Part shown: positions 6,930 through 42,036 of the stretch, in pieces
Position numbering within the stretch: position 1 is the stretch's first letter
Layout of the letters: every line of letters starts with the position of its first letter
Source: Larkinella soli
Lineage (GTDB): Bacteria; Bacteroidota; Bacteroidia; Cytophagales; Spirosomataceae
Assembly: GCF_003703975.1 (NCBI RefSeq)
Contig: NZ_QTJY01000008.1
Coordinates: 62,001 to 126,000 of the forward strand
Direction of reading: 5' to 3'
DNA length: 64,000 nucleotides
Notes under the pieces: generated by a model
Seen by the model: only the letters and a program-made list of their open reading frames with translations
What the model was told of the DNA's origin: nothing
The model's database searches: none
Program-made: the position numbers and the translations under genes

Positions 6930-9900
6930 GTGAGTTACAAAGAATACAAAAACCTGAATTACGCTCAGGTCGCCGACGACGTACTACAGTTCTGGAAGGC
7001 GAACCGCGTGTTCGAGAAATCGGTCGAAACGCGCGACGGTCAGCCCACGTTTACCTTTTACGAAGGCCCCCCCTCGGCCAACGGCAAACCGGGTATTCAC
7101 CACGTGATGGCCCGGGCGATCAAGGATATTTTCTGCCGGTACAAAACGCTTCAGGGCTTTCAGGTGAAGCGCAAGGGCGGCTGGGATACGCACGGCCTCC
7201 CCATCGAACTCCAGGTCGAGAAAGAACTGGGAATCACCAAGGATCATATCGGAAAACCGGCTTCGGAAGGCGGTATTTCCGTCGAGGAATACAACCGCAG
7301 GTGCCGCGAGGCCGTGATGAAATTTACGGACCTCTGGAACGACCTGACCGAAAAGATGGGGTACTGGGTCGATCTGGAAAACCCGTACGTCACCTACCAC
7401 AACGAATACATCGAATCGCTCTGGTACCTGCTCAAAAAGCTGTATGATCAGGGTCTGCTGTATAAAGGCTATACCATCCAACCGTATTCGCCCAAAGCCG
7501 GTACCGGGCTGTCCTCGCACGAGCTGAACATGCCGGGCACGTATAAGGACGTGAAGGACACGACTATCGTGGCGATGTTCAGGGTAAAACCGTCGGAAAA
7601 GGCGCAGCTGCTGGCGTCGGCCGACGGGACACCGAGCTACATCCTGGCCTGGACGACCACCCCCTGGACCCTTCCCGCCAACTCGGCCCTGACCGTCGGC
7701 AAAGACATCGACTACGTGCTGGTGAAGACCTTCAACCCTTACACCCACGAGCCGGTGCAGGTGGTGCTGGCCCAAGCGCTGGTCGGCCGCTGGTTTAACG
7801 AAAAAGGGCAGGACGGCGACTTCGAGGGCTACGCGGCCAGCGATAAGAAACTAACCCCCTGGACCATACTCAAGACGTTCAAAGGCGCCGACCTGGAAGG
7901 CATCGAATATGAACAGCTGCTGCCCTACGTTCAGCCCGAAAAACCCGCGTTCCGCGTCATCCTCGGCGACTTCGTGACGACCGAAGACGGTACGGGCGTC
8001 GTGCATACCTCCCCCACCTTCGGGGCCGACGACTTCCGGGTCGCGCAGGCCAACGGCATCCCGCCGATCATGGTCCGCGATGAAAACGGGAAGGAAGTGC
8101 CCATCGTCGACCGGCAGGGCCGCTTCGTGCAGGAGATCGGCGAGTTCGGCGGGCGGTATGTGAAAGAGCAGTATTACTCCGACGAGGAGCAGGCCGACCC
8201 GGAGTTCCGGCCTACGGACGTGCTGATCGCCATCAAACTGAAGGAGGAAGGCAAGGCGTTCCGCGTCGAGAAATACGAACACCCCTACCCCCACTGCTGG
8301 CGGACCGACAAACCCGTCCTGTATTACCCGCTCGACAGCTGGTTCATCCGCACCACGGCGAAAAAAGACCGGCTGGTCGAACTGAACAAGACCATCAACT
8401 GGATACCCGAAAGCACCGGCACCGGCCGCTTCGGCAACTGGCTCGAAAACCTCGTCGACTGGAACCTCAGCCGCAGCCGCTACTGGGGCACCCCACTGCC
8501 GATCTGGCGCAGCGAAACCGGCGAGGAAGTCTGCATCGGCTCCGTCGCGGAGCTGAAAGAAATGGTTGAATTGTCGAATCGAAGAATGATAGAATTAATT
8601 AAGGCGGAAAACCGTACGGAATGGAATGCCTATCTCGAAAAAAATAATTCAATCATTCAGCAACTCAACAACTCAACAATTGACCTGCACCGCCCTTATG
8701 TCGATGAGGTATACCTCCTCTCCGAGTCCGGGAAGCTCATGCAGCGCGAACCGGACCTGATCGACGTGTGGTTCGATTCGGGGGCCATGCCGTATGCGCA
8801 GTGGCACTATCCGTTCGAGAATAAGGAGATTTTCGATAAGGCCTATCCGGCCGATTTCATCTCGGAGGGCGTCGATCAGACGCGCGGCTGGTTCTTCACG
8901 CTCCACGCCATCGCCGGGATGCTGAACGACTCGGTAGCCTTCAAAAACGTGGTTTCGACGGGTCTGGTGCTGGACAAGAACGGCAATAAGATGTCGAAAC
9001 GGCTGGGCAACGCCGTCGATCCGTTCGATACGCTGGCGACCTACGGGGCCGACGCGACGCGCTGGTACCTGATCACCAACGCCGAGCCCTGGGATAACCT
9101 GAAATTCAATATCGACGGCATCGGGGAAGTGCAACGACGGTTCTTCGGGACGCTGTACAACACCTACTCGTTTTTCGCCCTCTACGCCAACCTCGACGGC
9201 TTCGACTTCGACGGCCGCCGGACCATCCCGGTTTCGGAACGCCCGGAACTGGACCGCTGGATTCTGTCGAAACTTCAGTCGCTGATTCTGGAAGTGGAGC
9301 AGCAGTTCGAAGACTACAACCCAACCAAAGCCGGGCGGGCCATCCAGGATTTCGTCAACGATCACCTGTCGAACTGGTACGTGCGGCTTTCTCGCCGGCG
9401 GTTCTGGAATACGGCCGAAGCCCCCGACAAACGGGCGGCTTACGAAACGCTGCACGAATGCCTGACGACGGTATCGAAACTGATGTCGCCCATTGCGCCC
9501 TTCTTCGCCGACTGGCTGTACCGCAACCTGACGAAGGAAACCGACCTGTCGGTGCACCTGACCGAATTCCCGCCGGCCGAACGCGACCTGATCGACACCG
9601 ATCTGGAAACGTCGATGCAGCTGGGACAGGATATTTCGTCGCTGGTGCATTCGCTGCGGAAAGGCCACAAGATCAAGGTGCGCCAGCCGCTGACGAAGGT
9701 GCTGATCCCGGTACTGAACGAAACCACCCGCCGTCAGATCGAACACGTCGCGCCCATCATCCAGTCGGAGGTCAACGTGAAGGCCGTCGAATTCATCGAC
9801 GACGCGTCGGGCATCCTGAAGAAGAAGATCAAGCCCAACTTCAAGACCCTCGGACCCAAGTTCGGGCCGAAGATGAAGGATGTGGCCGCTACCATCAACG

Positions 9901-10334
9901 CCATGACCGAAGACGACATCCGGAAGCTCGAAGCCGCCGGAAGTCTGTCCTTGGCCATTGGTGAGATTACGATGCAGGACGTGGAAATCCGGACCGAGGA
10001 CGTGCCGGGCTGGCTGGTGGCGAGCGAAGGCAGCCTGACCGTGGCCCTGGACGTAACGATCACGGAAGAACTCCGCCGGGAGGGCATCGCCCGCGATTTC
10101 GTCAACCGGATCCAGAACCTGCGGAAAGACCGTGATTTCGACGTGACCGACAAGATCACCATCACGCTGGAAAACAATAACGCGGTGCTGTCCAACGCCA
10201 TCGAGGCCAACCGGCCCTATATCTGCCGCGAAGTGCAGGCCCAGTCGCTCGACCTGGTGACGGACCTGAACGGCAACGCGACGGAGATCGAAATGGACGA
10301 ATTTCTTCTGCGGGTGAAAATTGAGGTAGTCTGA
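6930..10334 (+). CDS. ileS: Isoleucine--tRNA ligase
   Basis: Class I aminoacyl-tRNA synthetase that charges tRNA-Ile and edits valine, in the cytoplasm; 1134 aa, full length. The GTG start at 6930 gives MSYKEYKNLNYAQ, usual for Bacteroidota. The HIGH signature appears as GKPGIHH (about 52-58) and KMSKR is at about 687-691. The CP1 editing domain (TTTPWTLPAN) and anticodon-binding domain are present. The order and type (eukaryote-like, long) fit the phylum. Odd feature: residues about 545-588, between ELKEMV and DLHRPYVDE, are encoded by an imperfect palindrome of the same family as intergenic repeats elsewhere in this window. The frame stays open, so the enzyme is presumably active. Confidence 0.98.
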   Translation: MSYKEYKNLNYAQVADDVLQFWKANRVFEKSVETRDGQPTFTFYEGPPSANGKPGIHHVMARAIKDIFCRYKTLQGFQVKRKGGWDTHGLPIELQVEKELGITKDHIGKPASEGGISVEEYNRRCREAVMKFTDLWNDLTEKMGYWVDLENPYVTYHNEYIESLWYLLKKLYDQGLLYKGYTIQPYSPKAGTGLSSHELNMPGTYKDVKDTTIVAMFRVKPSEKAQLLASADGTPSYILAWTTTPWTLPANSALTVGKDIDYVLVKTFNPYTHEPVQVVLAQALVGRWFNEKGQDGDFEGYAASDKKLTPWTILKTFKGADLEGIEYEQLLPYVQPEKPAFRVILGDFVTTEDGTGVVHTSPTFGADDFRVAQANGIPPIMVRDENGKEVPIVDRQGRFVQEIGEFGGRYVKEQYYSDEEQADPEFRPTDVLIAIKLKEEGKAFRVEKYEHPYPHCWRTDKPVLYYPLDSWFIRTTAKKDRLVELNKTINWIPESTGTGRFGNWLENLVDWNLSRSRYWGTPLPIWRSETGEEVCIGSVAELKEMVELSNRRMIELIKAENRTEWNAYLEKNNSIIQQLNNSTIDLHRPYVDEVYLLSESGKLMQREPDLIDVWFDSGAMPYAQWHYPFENKEIFDKAYPADFISEGVDQTRGWFFTLHAIAGMLNDSVAFKNVVSTGLVLDKNGNKMSKRLGNAVDPFDTLATYGADATRWYLITNAEPWDNLKFNIDGIGEVQRRFFGTLYNTYSFFALYANLDGFDFDGRRTIPVSERPELDRWILSKLQSLILEVEQQFEDYNPTKAGRAIQDFVNDHLSNWYVRLSRRRFWNTAEAPDKRAAYETLHECLTTVSKLMSPIAPFFADWLYRNLTKETDLSVHLTEFPPAERDLIDTDLETSMQLGQDISSLVHSLRKGHKIKVRQPLTKVLIPVLNETTRRQIEHVAPIIQSEVNVKAVEFIDDASGILKKKIKPNFKTLGPKFGPKMKDVAATINAMTEDDIRKLEAAGSLSLAIGEITMQDVEIRTEDVPGWLVASEGSLTVALDVTITEELRREGIARDFVNRIQNLRKDRDFDVTDKITITLENNNAVLSNAIEANRPYICREVQAQSLDLVTDLNGNATEIEMDEFLLRVKIEVV
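8564..8691 (+). repeat. Palindromic TTGAATGA-type repeat embedded in ileS
   Basis: The right arm at 8645-8685 (TAATTCAATCATTCAGCAAC followed by CTCAACA units) closely matches the right arm of the intergenic repeat at 39157-39190. The left arm (8564-8600) is its degenerate reverse complement. The arms lie within the ileS reading frame and code for MVELSNRRMIELIK and NNSIIQQLNNST. Confidence 0.7.
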
Positions 10335-29585: not shown

Positions 29586-30503
29586 ATGGCTTCGTTCACG
29601 GATCAATTAGCAAAATTCTTCGGAATGAATGAAACGGACACCTCACTCCGTGAGCTGTTCCTCAGCGAGTTAAGAGGCATTTACTACGCCGAAAAACAAA
29701 TCGCCGATAATTTGCCGGACATGGCCGAAGCGGCCACCACCGATGTGGTGCGCAATGCCTTCGAGATGCACCGTGCCCAAACCCAGGACCAGATTCGCCG
29801 GATCGAGCAGATCTTCAGCCAGCTGGGTGTGGATGCGGACGAAAAAACCTGCAACGCGGCCGACGGCCTGATCGACGACGGTGATGTGGTGATTGCCGAA
29901 ACCGATTCCGGTTCGCTTACCCGCGACGCGGCTCTGATCATCGCCGGCCAGAAAGTGGAACACCATGAGATAGCCGCCTACGGATCATTGCATTCGCTGG
30001 CCCGGCTGCTGGGATACCACGAGGCCGCGCAACTGATCGAGCAGAGTCTGCAGGAAGAAAAGGACACCGACAAAAAGCTGACCGAAATTGCGGAGTCCTT
30101 CATCAACGAACGCGCCAAAATGGAATCGGACACCGACAGCGACAACAACACCATGCGCAACCGCATGCGTGATACCGTCGGCGAGGGTGACTACGGCAAC
30201 GATATGGGCAACATGGGCAGCAGCCGCTCGGGTGTAACCGGCTCAGGAACGGAAGAGTACTCGGAATCGACCCGACGGACCAGTGGCGACACCAGCTACT
30301 CCGGCCAGTACGGAAACCCTTCCGATGACCCGGCTAACCTCCGCGACGACGTAGGCTCGACGGGCAACACCGGCTACGGCACGGGTTCCGGCTCTTCCTC
30401 CTCGTCGACCAACTGGTCTGACGACCGCGACAGCGATGCCGGCAATGACTACACCCGTCGCACCGGCTCCGGCTCGACCGGCGGCTCCAGCAGTGGAATC
30501 TAA
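29586..30503 (+). CDS. DUF892 (YciE-like) ferritin-fold protein with long polar tail
   Basis: 305 aa. Residues about 18-175 form the YciE/DUF892 four-helix domain (LRELFLSELRGIYYAEKQI, GQKVEHHEIAAYGSL), which carries a di-metal site and is linked to stress. The last about 125 residues are low complexity: rich in Gly, Ser, Asp, Asn, Thr and Tyr (GNDMGNMGSSRSGVTGSG, TGYGTGSGSSSSSTNW), surely disordered. Relatives normally stop soon after the fold. A 36-bp palindrome follows the stop. Confidence 0.88.
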   Translation: MASFTDQLAKFFGMNETDTSLRELFLSELRGIYYAEKQIADNLPDMAEAATTDVVRNAFEMHRAQTQDQIRRIEQIFSQLGVDADEKTCNAADGLIDDGDVVIAETDSGSLTRDAALIIAGQKVEHHEIAAYGSLHSLARLLGYHEAAQLIEQSLQEEKDTDKKLTEIAESFINERAKMESDTDSDNNTMRNRMRDTVGEGDYGNDMGNMGSSRSGVTGSGTEEYSESTRRTSGDTSYSGQYGNPSDDPANLRDDVGSTGNTGYGTGSGSSSSSTNWSDDRDSDAGNDYTRRTGSGSTGGSSSGI

Positions 30504-30506
30504 GTA

Positions 30507-30607
30507 AATTGTTGAATGACGGAATGGTTGAATGATTGAATGTGCGCTGCCATTTTTAGTATTGCGGAGCGCATTCAATCATTCAACCATTCCGTCATTC
30601 AACAATT
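30507..30607. repeat. 36-bp perfect inverted repeat of TTGAATGA type
   Basis: Arms 30507-30542 and 30572-30607 are exact reverse complements around a 29-base loop. The arms are made of short units such as TTGTTGAATGA, GGAATGG and TTGAATGATTGAATG. It fills the gap between two convergent genes and ends 3 bases from the DUF2851 stop. A sister copy is at 39093-39190. Confidence 0.95.
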
Positions 30608-30610
30608 CCA

Positions 30611-31912
30611 TCATTTCACCATCTCCAGCCCGATCTGGCAGGAGAGGCATTTTTTAGGACAGCAGTAGGAGGTGTAGAGTTCAAGGGCGGCCTGGGAGTC
30701 GAAGGCGCTGGCGAGGGGAACGTGCAGGGCGGACCAGAGGGCGGTGATCCGATTTTGTTCGGCCGGAAGTTCTTCGAGAAGCGCGACGGCACGGTCCCGG
30801 TAGGCGGGCAGGCCCTTCTGACAGGAATAGGCGATCAGCAGGGGAATGACGGCATTGATGATCAGGCTCCGGGCCGCCGTCTCACCCAGGGTGGAAGACA
30901 CCCGGGCCGATGGGGGGCCGAAGCGGTAATGGGTCTGCCAGTACGCCGAAGGCGCTGCCTGAAGATGCCGGAGCAGGGTCGGAGCATCGGTTTCCATCAG
31001 CAGAGAGAAAAAGCTGCCTCTCCCGGCCAGTAAGGCAACGAACTGGGCCAAACGAAGCGTTGGAAAATTGGCCGGACGCAGCCTCGACCACTTCCAGAGA
31101 TGACCCGGAAGCCGTTTTTCAGTCAGCCGGTATTTGGCGGCCAGAAAGCGGTATTCCCGGAGCAGCGTGATTTCGTAATCGTCGGTCGGCTCCCCGCTCA
31201 GCAAACCCGCCGTCCCGAACAGCAGCGCTTCCATCTGAAACGGCTGATCCCGGTGTTTCAGCAGAAATTTGAGCGGCACCAGGCGCGTCAGCTGGGCAAA
31301 CGGCTCGGCATTGATCTGAAAGCCGAATGCCTGCGCCATCAGGCGGTAGGCGGTTTCTTCCCAGTCAGAGTCGGAGGATCGGTAAACGGCTTCCGCTTCG
31401 GCTGCTTTTCGGGCGAGCCGTTCAAACAGAACCTTGTCAAACATGGACATACGACGCAGCGGCTCGACCTGCGAAAGCCGCCCGGCACAGGGAATCAGGC
31501 CGGTGCCGTCGATCAGGCTTCGGTACCGGAGCAGCAGCGACGGGTCCGTATAGTCGCTCAGGCAAAGCGTCGGAATCACCGAACCGTCCCGGCGCCGGAT
31601 CGGCAGGGTCGCGTTTTCCCAGACGATGTGCAGAATGACGTTATCGTAGGCCGGATCGTACTGATGCCGGTGAACGAGCCAGTCGGAAGCCCGAATGTGC
31701 GCTTCTACCGTCCCGACCCATTCGACCTCTCCCAGAACGATGCGGGCGTTGGTGAAATCCGGCCCGGAGTCGGGATTTCGAAAGCCGGGATGCACCACCC
31801 GGATGCGCTCTCCCTGCGTCGTCCGAAGACCGATGTGCCGGAAATACCGGAATTGCCAGAGAAAATACAGAAAGTCTTCGGACGTCAGGGCGGGCGACAG
31901 CAGATTGCTCAC
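30611..31912 (-). CDS. DUF2851 family protein
   Basis: 433 aa, cytoplasmic by lack of signal. The N-terminus MSNLLSPALTSEDFLYFLWQ and the motifs GPDFTNARIVLGEVEWVGTVEAHI and LHIVWEN are typical of the Bacteroidota-specific DUF2851 family. The C-terminus has CCPKKCLSCQIG, a Cys cluster that could bind metal. The family resembles nuclease-fold proteins in the acidic VEWVGTVEAHI region, but no function is established that I know of. Confidence 0.92.
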   Translation of the reverse strand: MSNLLSPALTSEDFLYFLWQFRYFRHIGLRTTQGERIRVVHPGFRNPDSGPDFTNARIVLGEVEWVGTVEAHIRASDWLVHRHQYDPAYDNVILHIVWENATLPIRRRDGSVIPTLCLSDYTDPSLLLRYRSLIDGTGLIPCAGRLSQVEPLRRMSMFDKVLFERLARKAAEAEAVYRSSDSDWEETAYRLMAQAFGFQINAEPFAQLTRLVPLKFLLKHRDQPFQMEALLFGTAGLLSGEPTDDYEITLLREYRFLAAKYRLTEKRLPGHLWKWSRLRPANFPTLRLAQFVALLAGRGSFFSLLMETDAPTLLRHLQAAPSAYWQTHYRFGPPSARVSSTLGETAARSLIINAVIPLLIAYSCQKGLPAYRDRAVALLEELPAEQNRITALWSALHVPLASAFDSQAALELYTSYCCPKKCLSCQIGLEMVK

Positions 31913-39074: not shown

Positions 39075-39092
39075 AATGATAGAATTGTTGAG

Positions 39093-39190
39093 TTGTTGAA
39101 TTGTTGAATAACTGAATGATTGAATGTAGCTCCGCTATGCTGAATTGGCAGCGCAACATTCAATCATTCAGTTATTCAACAATTCAACAA
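39093..39190. repeat. 34-bp perfect inverted repeat of TTGAATGA type
   Basis: Arms 39093-39126 and 39157-39190 are exact reverse complements with a 30-base loop. Units are TTGTTGAA, TTGAATAACTGAATGA and TTGAATG. The right arm abuts the stop codon of the downstream-listed minus-strand gene at 39193. It is a clear relative of the repeat at 30507. Confidence 0.95.
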
Positions 39191-39192
39191 TT

Positions 39193-40116
39193 TCACAGCG
39201 CTGTGTTCAGCGTTTTGGTGATGTAATCCTTGTTGATCTGGGCGCACTGGAGGGCGGTTTTTCCGGGGTCGGGCACCCGGTCGAGTTCGACGACGCCCCA
39301 GCCGTTGAATTTGATGTCCCGCAGGGCCGCAAATACCGCCGGCACGTCGACGTTGCCCTGCCCCAGCTCGACGAACTTGTAGGCTTTCGGATCGTTGGGT
39401 TTCTCGGGCAGCGGGCTTTTGGTGTCTTTCAGGTGCAGGGCATACAGGATGTCCTTATACTGCCGGACGGCTTTCGCCGGGTCGCCCCCGCCCTGTTTGT
39501 AATGGGCGATGTCGAGCAGCAGCCTCACGTGTTTGGGATTCATTGCCTGCACCAGCACGTCCACCTCCTCCGGGGTTTCGCCCCACTGGTTCATGTGGTT
39601 GTGGTAGGTGGCCTGGATGCCCAGGTCGGCGGTCTGTCTGCCGATTTCGTTCATGACCTCGGCCAGCTTCTTCAGTTCCTCCGTGGTCGGGGCCTGGTTG
39701 TTTTTGCGGAGGCTGTTGGTCAGCTGGATTGCCGACCCGCCGAGCGCCTTCACGAAACTGGCATGGGCCACGTGCACGTCGATGGTGCTCTGCCGTTTGG
39801 CCGGGTCGACCTCGACGTTTCCGCTCGAAAACATGGCCAGGGTCAGCCCGTTCTGTTCGAGCAGGGCCTTCAGTTCGGACGGTTTGGCCTTATAGGGACT
39901 AAAGGTGTTGGCGCGAAGCTGAATGCCTTTGTAACCGAGCGAAGCGAGGTCTTTGATGGCCTGCTCGTCCTTGTTCTCCCAGGTGATGGAAGAGTAACCG
40001 ATTTTCAGGCCGGATTTTTTGAGGGTCCCGGCCAGAAGGTCGGCCCCGGCCGTAAGGGCCAGAGCCGACAGACCGGCGGAAGTGAGAAACTGTCGTCTGT
40101 TTACAGTCTCCTGCAT
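39193..40116 (-). CDS. Sugar phosphate isomerase/epimerase family protein, Tat-exported
   Basis: AP endonuclease 2-type TIM barrel of 307 residues. The N-terminus MQETVNRRQFLTSAGLSALA is a Tat signal. Metal-site motifs: GIQLRANTFS, NLGIQATYHNHMNQW-like region (LGIQATYHNHMNQWGE), VRLLLDIAHYKQGG, and YALHLKDTKSP. Substrates of exported members include keto-sugars; in this locus it may isomerise or cleave a 3-keto glycoside. It follows SusD by about 170 bases. Confidence 0.92.
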   Translation of the reverse strand: MQETVNRRQFLTSAGLSALALTAGADLLAGTLKKSGLKIGYSSITWENKDEQAIKDLASLGYKGIQLRANTFSPYKAKPSELKALLEQNGLTLAMFSSGNVEVDPAKRQSTIDVHVAHASFVKALGGSAIQLTNSLRKNNQAPTTEELKKLAEVMNEIGRQTADLGIQATYHNHMNQWGETPEEVDVLVQAMNPKHVRLLLDIAHYKQGGGDPAKAVRQYKDILYALHLKDTKSPLPEKPNDPKAYKFVELGQGNVDVPAVFAALRDIKFNGWGVVELDRVPDPGKTALQCAQINKDYITKTLNTAL

Positions 40117-40209
40117 ATCGGGTAAGGGAATAGTCAGCGAACTGACGTGAATACTGGATCGTCGGATATAAAAGCCTCCCGGTTTGGAAATCTACCGGGA
40201 AAAGTGGGG

Positions 40210-40290
40210 AGTTTAGGAGTTTAGGGATTGACGTTAACTCCTAAACTCCTAAACTCAATCATTCAATCACTCCCCCATTCAATCATTCCA
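40210..40290. repeat. 17-bp inverted repeat plus TTCAATCATT tract
   Basis: GAGTTTAGGAGTTTAGG (40210-40226) and its reverse complement (40241-40257) form a stem with a 14-base loop. Next to it (40257-40290) are repeats of CAATCATTCAATCA and ATTCAATCATTCCATC, matching one arm of the palindromes at 30507 and 39093. It ends at the SusD stop codon. Confidence 0.8.
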
Positions 40291-42036
40291 TCAATAGCCC
40301 GGGTTCTGCGGGAATTTGGAAGGCCCGCCGGCGGAGCGGTCGATCTGATCCTGGGGAATGGGCCGCAGGTTGTGGAACTCTTTTACGTTGGGAGCACCAT
40401 CGGGGTTGTATTTCTTGACCCGGTCGACCAGCACGCCCCAGCGCTTGAGGTCGAACCAGCGGTGCATTTCACCGGCCAGTTCGCGTTCGCGTTCTTCCAT
40501 GATGAACTCCATCGTGGCCTGGGCCGCCGTGATCTCCATGTCTTTTTCCTTGCCCGGCCAGGCGGCCCGGCGACGAACTGCGTTGATGAACGGCACCGCA
40601 TCGGCGGCCTTGCCCTGCTTGATCAGAGCCTCGGCGGCCAGAAGGTGGGTTTCGGCCAGACGGAACATGATGAAGTCACGGCTGCCCGGCTCGTAGGTAC
40701 GGTCCGGACGCAAAGGGTCGAGGAATTTCTGAAGAACCGGGAAGAGGTTGGCCCGGTAGAGGCTCGGCACCAGCACCTGGTACTTCTTGGCGGCCCGCTG
40801 TTCACGCGTCCATTCGACCCCCGGAATGTAGATGGTCGTATCGCCGGAGGCAAACGTCAGGGTCTTCTTCGTATCGTCGAAGATCGGCGTCGTGTAGGTT
40901 CCGGGCCGGTTGCTCAGCCAGGTATCCTTGTAGGTTTTCTTGTAACGGGAATCCTTCGCCCGGTCGGCCGGATTGAAGACCACGTTCAACATGTAGTCGG
41001 TCGGCCGGAAGCGTTTGAAGGGGCGGCCGTTGAGCACGTCGCGCTGCATACCGGCCTGGGTGTCGTATTCCATCCCGAAATACAGGTGGGTCTGGTTCCC
41101 GTTGATCGTCACCGTGCTGGTCGTCGTGCTGTTAAAACCGGTTCCGATGTTGGTGATCGGCTCGGAGGTGTACTGGGTGGCGAAGATCAGCTCGTTGTTC
41201 ACCTCCCCTGCGCCCTGCGAGAACACACTGGCGAAATCGGGCAGCAGGCTGAAGCTGTAATTTTTGATGACGTTCTGCGCGTAGGTGGCGGCTTTGGCGA
41301 AATCGTCGGCCGCAGCGGCATCCTTATCCGTTCCTTTGGTCAGATACACTTTGGCCAGCAGGTGTTCGGCTGCGGCCTTGTGGACCCGGCCCTGGTCACC
41401 GCCGGTCGGAACGGCCGTCGGCAGGTCGGTCAGGGAGCCTTCCAGGTCGGCGATGATCTGGGCGTAGATGTCCTTCACCGGCGCCCGGCTGAACTCCTTG
41501 GTCGGTGTGAGGTTGCCTTTGGTCAGCAACGCCACCGGCCCGAACATCTGCACCAGGATGAAATAGTGGTGTCCGCGCAGGAATTTCAGTTCGGCCACCC
41601 GACGCTTCTTGAGGGCGGGGTCCAGTCCGGTGATGGATTCGGAGGCATCCAGCGCCACGTTGATCGTGTTGATTGCAATGTAGAAGGCGTTCCAGATGTT
41701 GTTGGTGATCGACAGGCGACCGTCGATCTGCGAAGTATACTGGTTAACAAACTTGAAGCTTCCGTCTGCGCCCATCGTGTAGGTGTCCGTACCGAAAACG
41801 GTCAGCGTCATGGCGTCTTCCCGGCCGTAATATTCGCGCAGGGAAGCGTAGGCGGCTTTCACGACGGCTTCAAACCCGTTGGGGGTAGAAGCATACTGGC
41901 TACCGACCTGCGAAACGGGAACCTCCTGGAGCAGGTCCTTACAGCTGCTGGTGCCGATCAGCAAAGCGCCTAAAACGAGGCAGGATTTGGTGATCTTGCG
42001 GGAAAATGAATGATATCGTTTCATATTCGAATTCAT
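40291..42036 (-). CDS. SusD/RagB family surface glycan-binding lipoprotein
   Basis: 581 aa. N-terminus with a lipobox (LGALLIGTSSCKDLLQ). The N-terminal SusD-like and C-terminal RagB/SusD domains are present: ASTPNGFEAVVKAAYASLRE, AELKFLRGHHYFILVQMFGPV, RDFIMFRLAETHLLAAEALIK, FIMEERERELAGEMHRWFDL. It forms the lid of the SusC transporter and captures glycan. An ATG 12 bases further in (42024, MKRYHSF) is equally plausible. It directly follows SusC by 20 bases. Confidence 0.96.
   Translation of the reverse strand: MNSNMKRYHSFSRKITKSCLVLGALLIGTSSCKDLLQEVPVSQVGSQYASTPNGFEAVVKAAYASLREYYGREDAMTLTVFGTDTYTMGADGSFKFVNQYTSQIDGRLSITNNIWNAFYIAINTINVALDASESITGLDPALKKRRVAELKFLRGHHYFILVQMFGPVALLTKGNLTPTKEFSRAPVKDIYAQIIADLEGSLTDLPTAVPTGGDQGRVHKAAAEHLLAKVYLTKGTDKDAAAADDFAKAATYAQNVIKNYSFSLLPDFASVFSQGAGEVNNELIFATQYTSEPITNIGTGFNSTTTSTVTINGNQTHLYFGMEYDTQAGMQRDVLNGRPFKRFRPTDYMLNVVFNPADRAKDSRYKKTYKDTWLSNRPGTYTTPIFDDTKKTLTFASGDTTIYIPGVEWTREQRAAKKYQVLVPSLYRANLFPVLQKFLDPLRPDRTYEPGSRDFIMFRLAETHLLAAEALIKQGKAADAVPFINAVRRRAAWPGKEKDMEITAAQATMEFIMEERERELAGEMHRWFDLKRWGVLVDRVKKYNPDGAPNVKEFHNLRPIPQDQIDRSAGGPSKFPQNPGY

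Follow-up and report, generated by a model that had tools for sequence, protein, structure and literature searches.

We report that the ileS gene of Larkinella soli carries, in frame, two inverted arrays of an eight-base repeat that also recurs between genes, and that sister ileS genes differ by the whole of the loop holding these arrays, as a block. On balance, the segment is probably an old repeat-derived allele of a variable IleS loop that would have moved between species through recombination of short tracts.

Two octamer arms within the ileS reading frame

In the window, the whole 64-kb stretch of DNA analysed, ileS encodes an intact isoleucine--tRNA ligase of 1134 aa on the plus strand (6930..10334; TIGR00392, 1002.4 bits). 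Its variable loop segment, 52 aa from GS..EL to DLHR (residues 537-588; 8538..8693, plus strand), differs blockwise among related species. Between the GS..EL and DLHR codons, and in frame, it contains two phased octamer arrays in inverted order: a left arm at 8565..8596, with the minus-strand reading AATTCTAT, CATTCTTC, GATTCGAC, AATTCAAC, and a right arm at 8646..8685 on the plus strand, reading AATTCAAT, CATTCAGC, AACTCAAC, AACTCAAC, AATTGACC within the codons for about NNSIIQQLNNSTID. The 49-nt middle that separates them (8597..8645) lacks the GC-rich core of the intergenic elements described below and is similar to that of other long alleles. The loop stretch is also the G+C minimum of ileS, with the lowest 128-nt window at 0.336 versus a gene median of 0.594. 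An earlier reading made from the sequence alone (hereafter, the sequence-only reading) had placed a palindromic repeat inside the ileS frame as a tolerated part of an essential enzyme, and the intact gene with both arms in frame bears this out. The left arm proves to be a repeat arm as well, and the loop core of the intergenic elements is missing. As read from the sequence, the right-arm strand is free of stops in all frames and gives an (IQQFNNST)-like peptide; the left-arm strand has TGA, and in ileS such triplets are altered or out of frame.

A structure model of IleS (pLDDT 70.4, pTM 0.48, with a poor core) was used for the loop helices alone, as a hint, and predicts helices at residues 539-560 and 564-580. 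IleS may tolerate the segment because, in this weak model, it folds as a pair of helices away from the active core. The aligned GS..ELKA and FDPHR blocks of Thermus IleRS (1ILE) are separated by nine residues, so the site varies in length beyond the family of Larkinella.

By score, the two coding arms belong to the octamer-array family of the genome. A threshold scan of the whole window found arrays at four loci, both ileS arms included; these arms score 10.0 and 12.5, whereas the best array in 40 simulated windows with the dinucleotide frequencies of the real one reached 7.0. Searched against the genome, the ileS stretch matches at least 39 further places, with 40 of 77 candidates scored (best E 4.8e-8). 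In synonymous recodings that kept the protein (20,000 draws each, with ileS or uniform codon usage and with an AAY or a looser generic score), the scores of the right arm, the left arm and both arms were reached 0, 0 and 0 times with ileS usage and the AAY score, 2, 1 and 0 times with ileS usage and the generic score, 231, 41 and 1 times with uniform codons and the AAY score, and 139, 107 and 0 times with uniform codons and the generic score. The 231 draws that attain the right arm alone lend something to the view that the arms reflect chance or convergence through amino-acid and codon choice, but the joint counts (none with ileS usage, one with uniform codons under the AAY score) and the lack of any array reaching 10 in the simulated windows make it most improbable. 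Chance by base composition was rejected on the strength of the recoding together with the simulated windows, and the proposed match to the intergenic palindromes (elements 30503-30619 and 39079-39196) is upheld by the same tests as lying beyond chance.

A dispersed octamer family in the Larkinella soli genome

The family consists of NATTCAAY octamers. In the window, one intergenic inverted element lies between convergent genes (30503..30619), another fills the spacer of two tandem genes (39079..39196), and a single array on the plus strand (40252..40291) stands beside another palindrome (40209-40256). The latter, which adjoins the octamer array, has 24-nt arms and is of another octamer type (ACTCCTAA-like units). 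Across the genome searched (6.9 Mb, 82 contigs), a 20-base octamer pattern gave 330 overlapping matches at two or fewer mismatches versus 0 for the reversed control, and a search with the octamer peptide gave 123 matches, clustered into 53 sites. Paired elements are octamer arrays flanking a loop; in 31 of 46, this loop is 28-31 nt long. Motifs chosen by eye place a GC-rich core between the arms in 41 of these 46, and the remaining five, which lack it, include the ileS copy. With orientations taken from a simple gene caller, 36 paired elements comprise 26 between tandem genes, 6 convergent, 2 divergent, 1 in a gene (ileS) and 1 at an edge, against a background of 25 tandem, 9 divergent and 3 convergent among window spacers longer than 20 nt. 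Strict arm-to-arm copying within elements was considered and found unsupported, the own arm ranking first in 7 of 46 with a mean score of 21.5 versus 20.5 for other arms. No Rfam family matched the window, and none of the 8 plasmid records returned for the octamer peptide (best E 0.01) looked related.

Synteny was checked for 14 elements in two congeners, giving 28 loci. Both neighbouring genes are retained at 23 of these, octamer arrays above threshold occur at two, both at one spacer, and a diverged element was recognized by eye at two more. The suggestion that the repeat is mobile stands insofar as the family is dispersed and most of the 14 positions differ from the two congeners, but it does not extend to a recent hop into ileS, against which the shared phase (see below) and the missing core speak. 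When 16 of the 23 syntenic spacers were folded, 13 had z values of -3.4 or lower versus 2-mer-block shuffles, with differing sequences, and 3 did not. In place of the octamer element found here, the orthologous spacers L345, L346, L351, L354 and L364 of congeners contain other long palindromes of unrelated sequence, as if the hairpins of these spacers persist while their sequence turns over. The flavour of the repeat varies from genome to genome: ATTCAAY arrays number 222 in Larkinella soli versus 0-3 in eight congeners, and ATTCRCT arrays 1 versus 16-81.

A shared octamer phase in ileS loops of several genera

The IleS loop has 52 residues here versus 43 in seven of eight congeners, a net excess of 9; the eighth, G004, has an unrelated loop of 104 residues, and members of several other genera, including g5 (presumably Spirosoma), have 51. 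In this comparison, G085 was left out for want of a DLHR motif, and the longer loop of G014 was counted from an earlier GS. The lengths of 43, 51, 52 and 104 residues among relatives agree with the proposal of a length-variable site. They revise the one that these ileS residues are an insert: the repeat is there, but the net excess is 9 residues, not an insert of 43. Separately, IleS of G004 (L039) and of G026, from another family (L040), have in common at this site a quite different loop, which is about 100 aa long and contains a GWYYFE motif.

By hand-assigned class, the tree genomes include 11 with the right arm, nine with left-arm octamers only and three with a long loop without octamers. 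Among 20 loops of the octamer classes, with scoring arms counted, the phase of the right arm relative to DLHR is 4 (mod 8) in 11 of 11 arms scoring at least 4.5, and that of the left arm relative to GS is 3 (mod 8) in 19 of 19 arms. One octamer phase against the flanking codons points to a single origin of the octamer-bearing ileS loop, that of Larkinella soli included. The IleS loop would have received an inverted octamer array a single time, in an ancestor belonging to the family, and have kept it in frame. Orthologues with the same protein but unrelated DNA had been named in advance as a sign that the match is fortuitous, and the relatives go part of the way, in that other genera have a 51-aa loop without right-arm octamers.

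A fresh in-frame insertion of a mobile intergenic palindrome into a short Larkinella loop, as with Rickettsia palindromic elements, would fit the absence of octamers from the ileS loops of the eight congeners searched and the AAY flavour being plentiful here (222 hits) and nearly absent (0-3) there. We nevertheless consider it quite unlikely. An independent hop into Larkinella ileS is disfavoured mainly because the octamer phase is identical to that in ileS of other genera; moreover, the loop core is missing from the ileS copy, its middle is akin to other long alleles, and TTGAAT octamers, if they made up an intact left arm, would put TGA in every frame.

The loop might instead be kept for a hairpin formed by both arms in ileS mRNA or DNA. 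RNA energies of the both-arm alleles of G000 (Larkinella soli), G208, G225 and G204 are somewhat below those of 400 synonymous recodings (z -1.69 to -2.14), but the effect is weak: G197, G211 and G219 give z of -0.42 to -1.21, and among three left-only alleles folded, two lie near 0 and one at -1.52. Such a role appears very unlikely as the reason for the loop.

Blockwise differences and possible loop exchange between species

On a loop-free ileS tree of 58 rows, from which G021 was left out for its short backbone and to which loop classes were assigned by hand, the right-arm class is scattered, requiring 11 changes for 11 genomes versus a shuffled mean of 10.3. Partial clustering is seen in the 43-residue class (14 changes versus 19.4 shuffled; 3 of 500 shuffles as low), the long loop without octamers forms one clade, and all classes together require 22 changes versus 29.2 shuffled (0 of 200 as low). 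Five close pairs were picked from the tree for comparison of their loops, and in four of them the two loops are of different classes. For protein identity, first outside and then inside the loop, the values are 0.983 and 0.353 in G197/G217, 0.985 and 0.353 in G201/G200, 0.935 and 0.327 in G214/G209, and 0.966 and 0.339 in G223/G206. In G207/G226, which have related long loops, the values are 0.939 and 0.706, and their DNA differs mainly in the right arm, with an indel that spoils the comparison of the upstream flank. The alignment with relatives that had been proposed as a check thus does reveal a varying segment, but what differs between close relatives is the whole loop.

In the 60 nt flanking the loop, DNA identity is 0.90-1.00 in G197/G217 and G201/G200, which suggests that the exchanged tract was short, at least in these two pairs; it is 0.77-0.87 in G214/G209 and G223/G206, with 0.77 downstream in G214/G209. 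For the short loop of G200, the closest counterpart (0.814) is that of G202, which belongs to another clade. After the single entry proposed above, loops would have been swapped between species as blocks of about 100-130 nt, with recombination endpoints within or close to the conserved codons for GS..EL and DLHR.

The ancestral long octamer allele may also have been retained vertically in Larkinella soli, with repeated loss or replacement by a short loop elsewhere. The nearest other loop to that of Larkinella soli is 63.5% identical, so that no close donor is seen and vertical retention there is conceivable; G000 is possibly placed early in its clade, and the tree shows partial clustering of short loops. 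Some exchange would still be required, however, given sister genes that are 98% identical and differ by the whole loop and the kinship of the G200 loop with one from another clade, and we regard this account as unlikely, if less so than a fresh insertion. The exchange of an old repeat-derived allele, which we favour, can be carried further, into a rather doubtful proposal. Dispersed palindromic repeats would have given rise to a polymorphic loop of this essential tRNA synthetase, and interchangeable cassettes would cross species borders with little flank, the loop behaving like a surface antigen. Exchange would possibly be favoured by an agent that reads the loop (a toxin, phage protein or inhibitor), with resident repeats supplying new versions.

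Right arms are found chiefly where the genome abounds in the octamer repeat, with exceptions. Among 24 long alleles, right-arm octamers are present in 8 of 11 genomes with at least 20 AAY hits versus 2 of 13 others (Fisher p 0.011). Independent pairs favour the link by 5.5 to 0.1 (median sign p 0.03), or by 5.1 to 0.1 with the traits exchanged (median p 0.06). G207 and G219 have a right arm but 0 AAY hits, and a full arm is absent from G150, G214 and G011, which have 45, 43 and 22 hits. Possibly, the right arm is renewed from resident repeats, or kept like them, where these are abundant.

Comparison with known repeat systems

Rickettsia palindromic elements (RPEs), as outlined in PMC10969869, are dispersed palindromic repeats that lie in frame inside protein genes and are tolerated as an extra protein segment. 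The ileS arms resemble them in being in frame within a protein gene as a tolerated segment. When features rather than sequences are compared, the units here are octamers in inverted arrays, unlike the conserved element of about 150 bp in RPEs. The ileS copy is not a whole intergenic element either, as it has the common arms but not the core found in 41 of 46 elements by motifs chosen by eye; and there is no precise empty site, since relatives hold a different loop of 43-51 aa (one of 104 aa). The analogy with RPEs drawn in the sequence-only reading fits the outcome but not the mechanism.

REP elements are described in PMC3733652 as short palindromes of intergenic DNA, where the neighbouring genes are mostly tandem or convergent; some lie inside ORFs. 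The octamer elements are likewise short, intergenic and mostly between tandem or convergent genes, with one inside an ORF (ileS). Unlike in REPs, no GTAG/CGTC excess was found at element ends (12 of 46 versus a background of 0.447). A link to a RAYT-like transposase was considered and dropped: the Y1 transposase (PF01797) occurs in 13 of 16 genomes with no relation, by eye, to octamer counts, and octamer arrays are absent from all eight Y1 flanks examined. The elements share with MITEs a small inverted-repeat structure and largely species-specific positions, but their arms are variable octamer arrays. PARCEL, as described in PMC2996958, is dyad-symmetric DNA encoding a tolerated protein segment; it differs in having tandem 25-residue motifs, often in membrane-targeted proteins, whereas here an 8-base unit occupies one loop of a tRNA ligase. 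Of the traits of the octamer family itself, the ileS segment has the two inverted phased arrays but not the GC-rich core between them. With REP tags, a Y1 link, a whole RPE element and an empty site all lacking, we class the ileS element as neither RPE nor REP. In the parts of the literature covered by our search, no description of a NATTCAAY octamer repeat or of ileS loop exchange was found.

The case shows how part of an essential enzyme can be encoded by what are elsewhere intergenic palindromes, and how the repeat-derived segment can then vary blockwise between otherwise near-identical genes of related species. Sister species that differ mainly in one loop offer a tractable system for asking whether repeat-derived protein segments are neutral filler or have been selected as variants; for RPEs, the question is likewise open.

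Other coding copies

The search of the genome for further coding genes with the repeat, which the sequence-only reading had advised, did find some. Among 103 distinct arrays, drawn from the fetched loci of the Larkinella soli genome and the window, coding-like frames comprise the two ileS arms, three paralogs of FG-GAP/ASPIC type with one array each (Pfam was run on one of them) and one antisense frame. Of these coding copies, ileS is the only one with both arms. The antisense case, an array at C5:175.1 kb, was rejected as coding, being an open frame over the spacer of two ABC-transporter-type genes. A coding array in G225 was likewise rejected, as 47 arrays yield one open frame of 205 codons that lacks a coding signal.

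In a survey of 60 FG-GAP loci, 25 of which lack the searched motif and 13 of which have an array, the arrays match the genome flavour in Larkinella but not in the AAY-rich g5 genomes G197, G217 and G208. These exceptions suggest that coding copies are not simply in step with the genome. The array-bearing FG-GAP/ASPIC proteins are L311, L320 and L329 in Larkinella soli and L317, L318, L324, L331, L339, L395, L396 and L410 in relatives. Their arrays sit in a loop before GWWN, with a flavour that differs by species, and some of the carriers have the same length as array-free paralogs.
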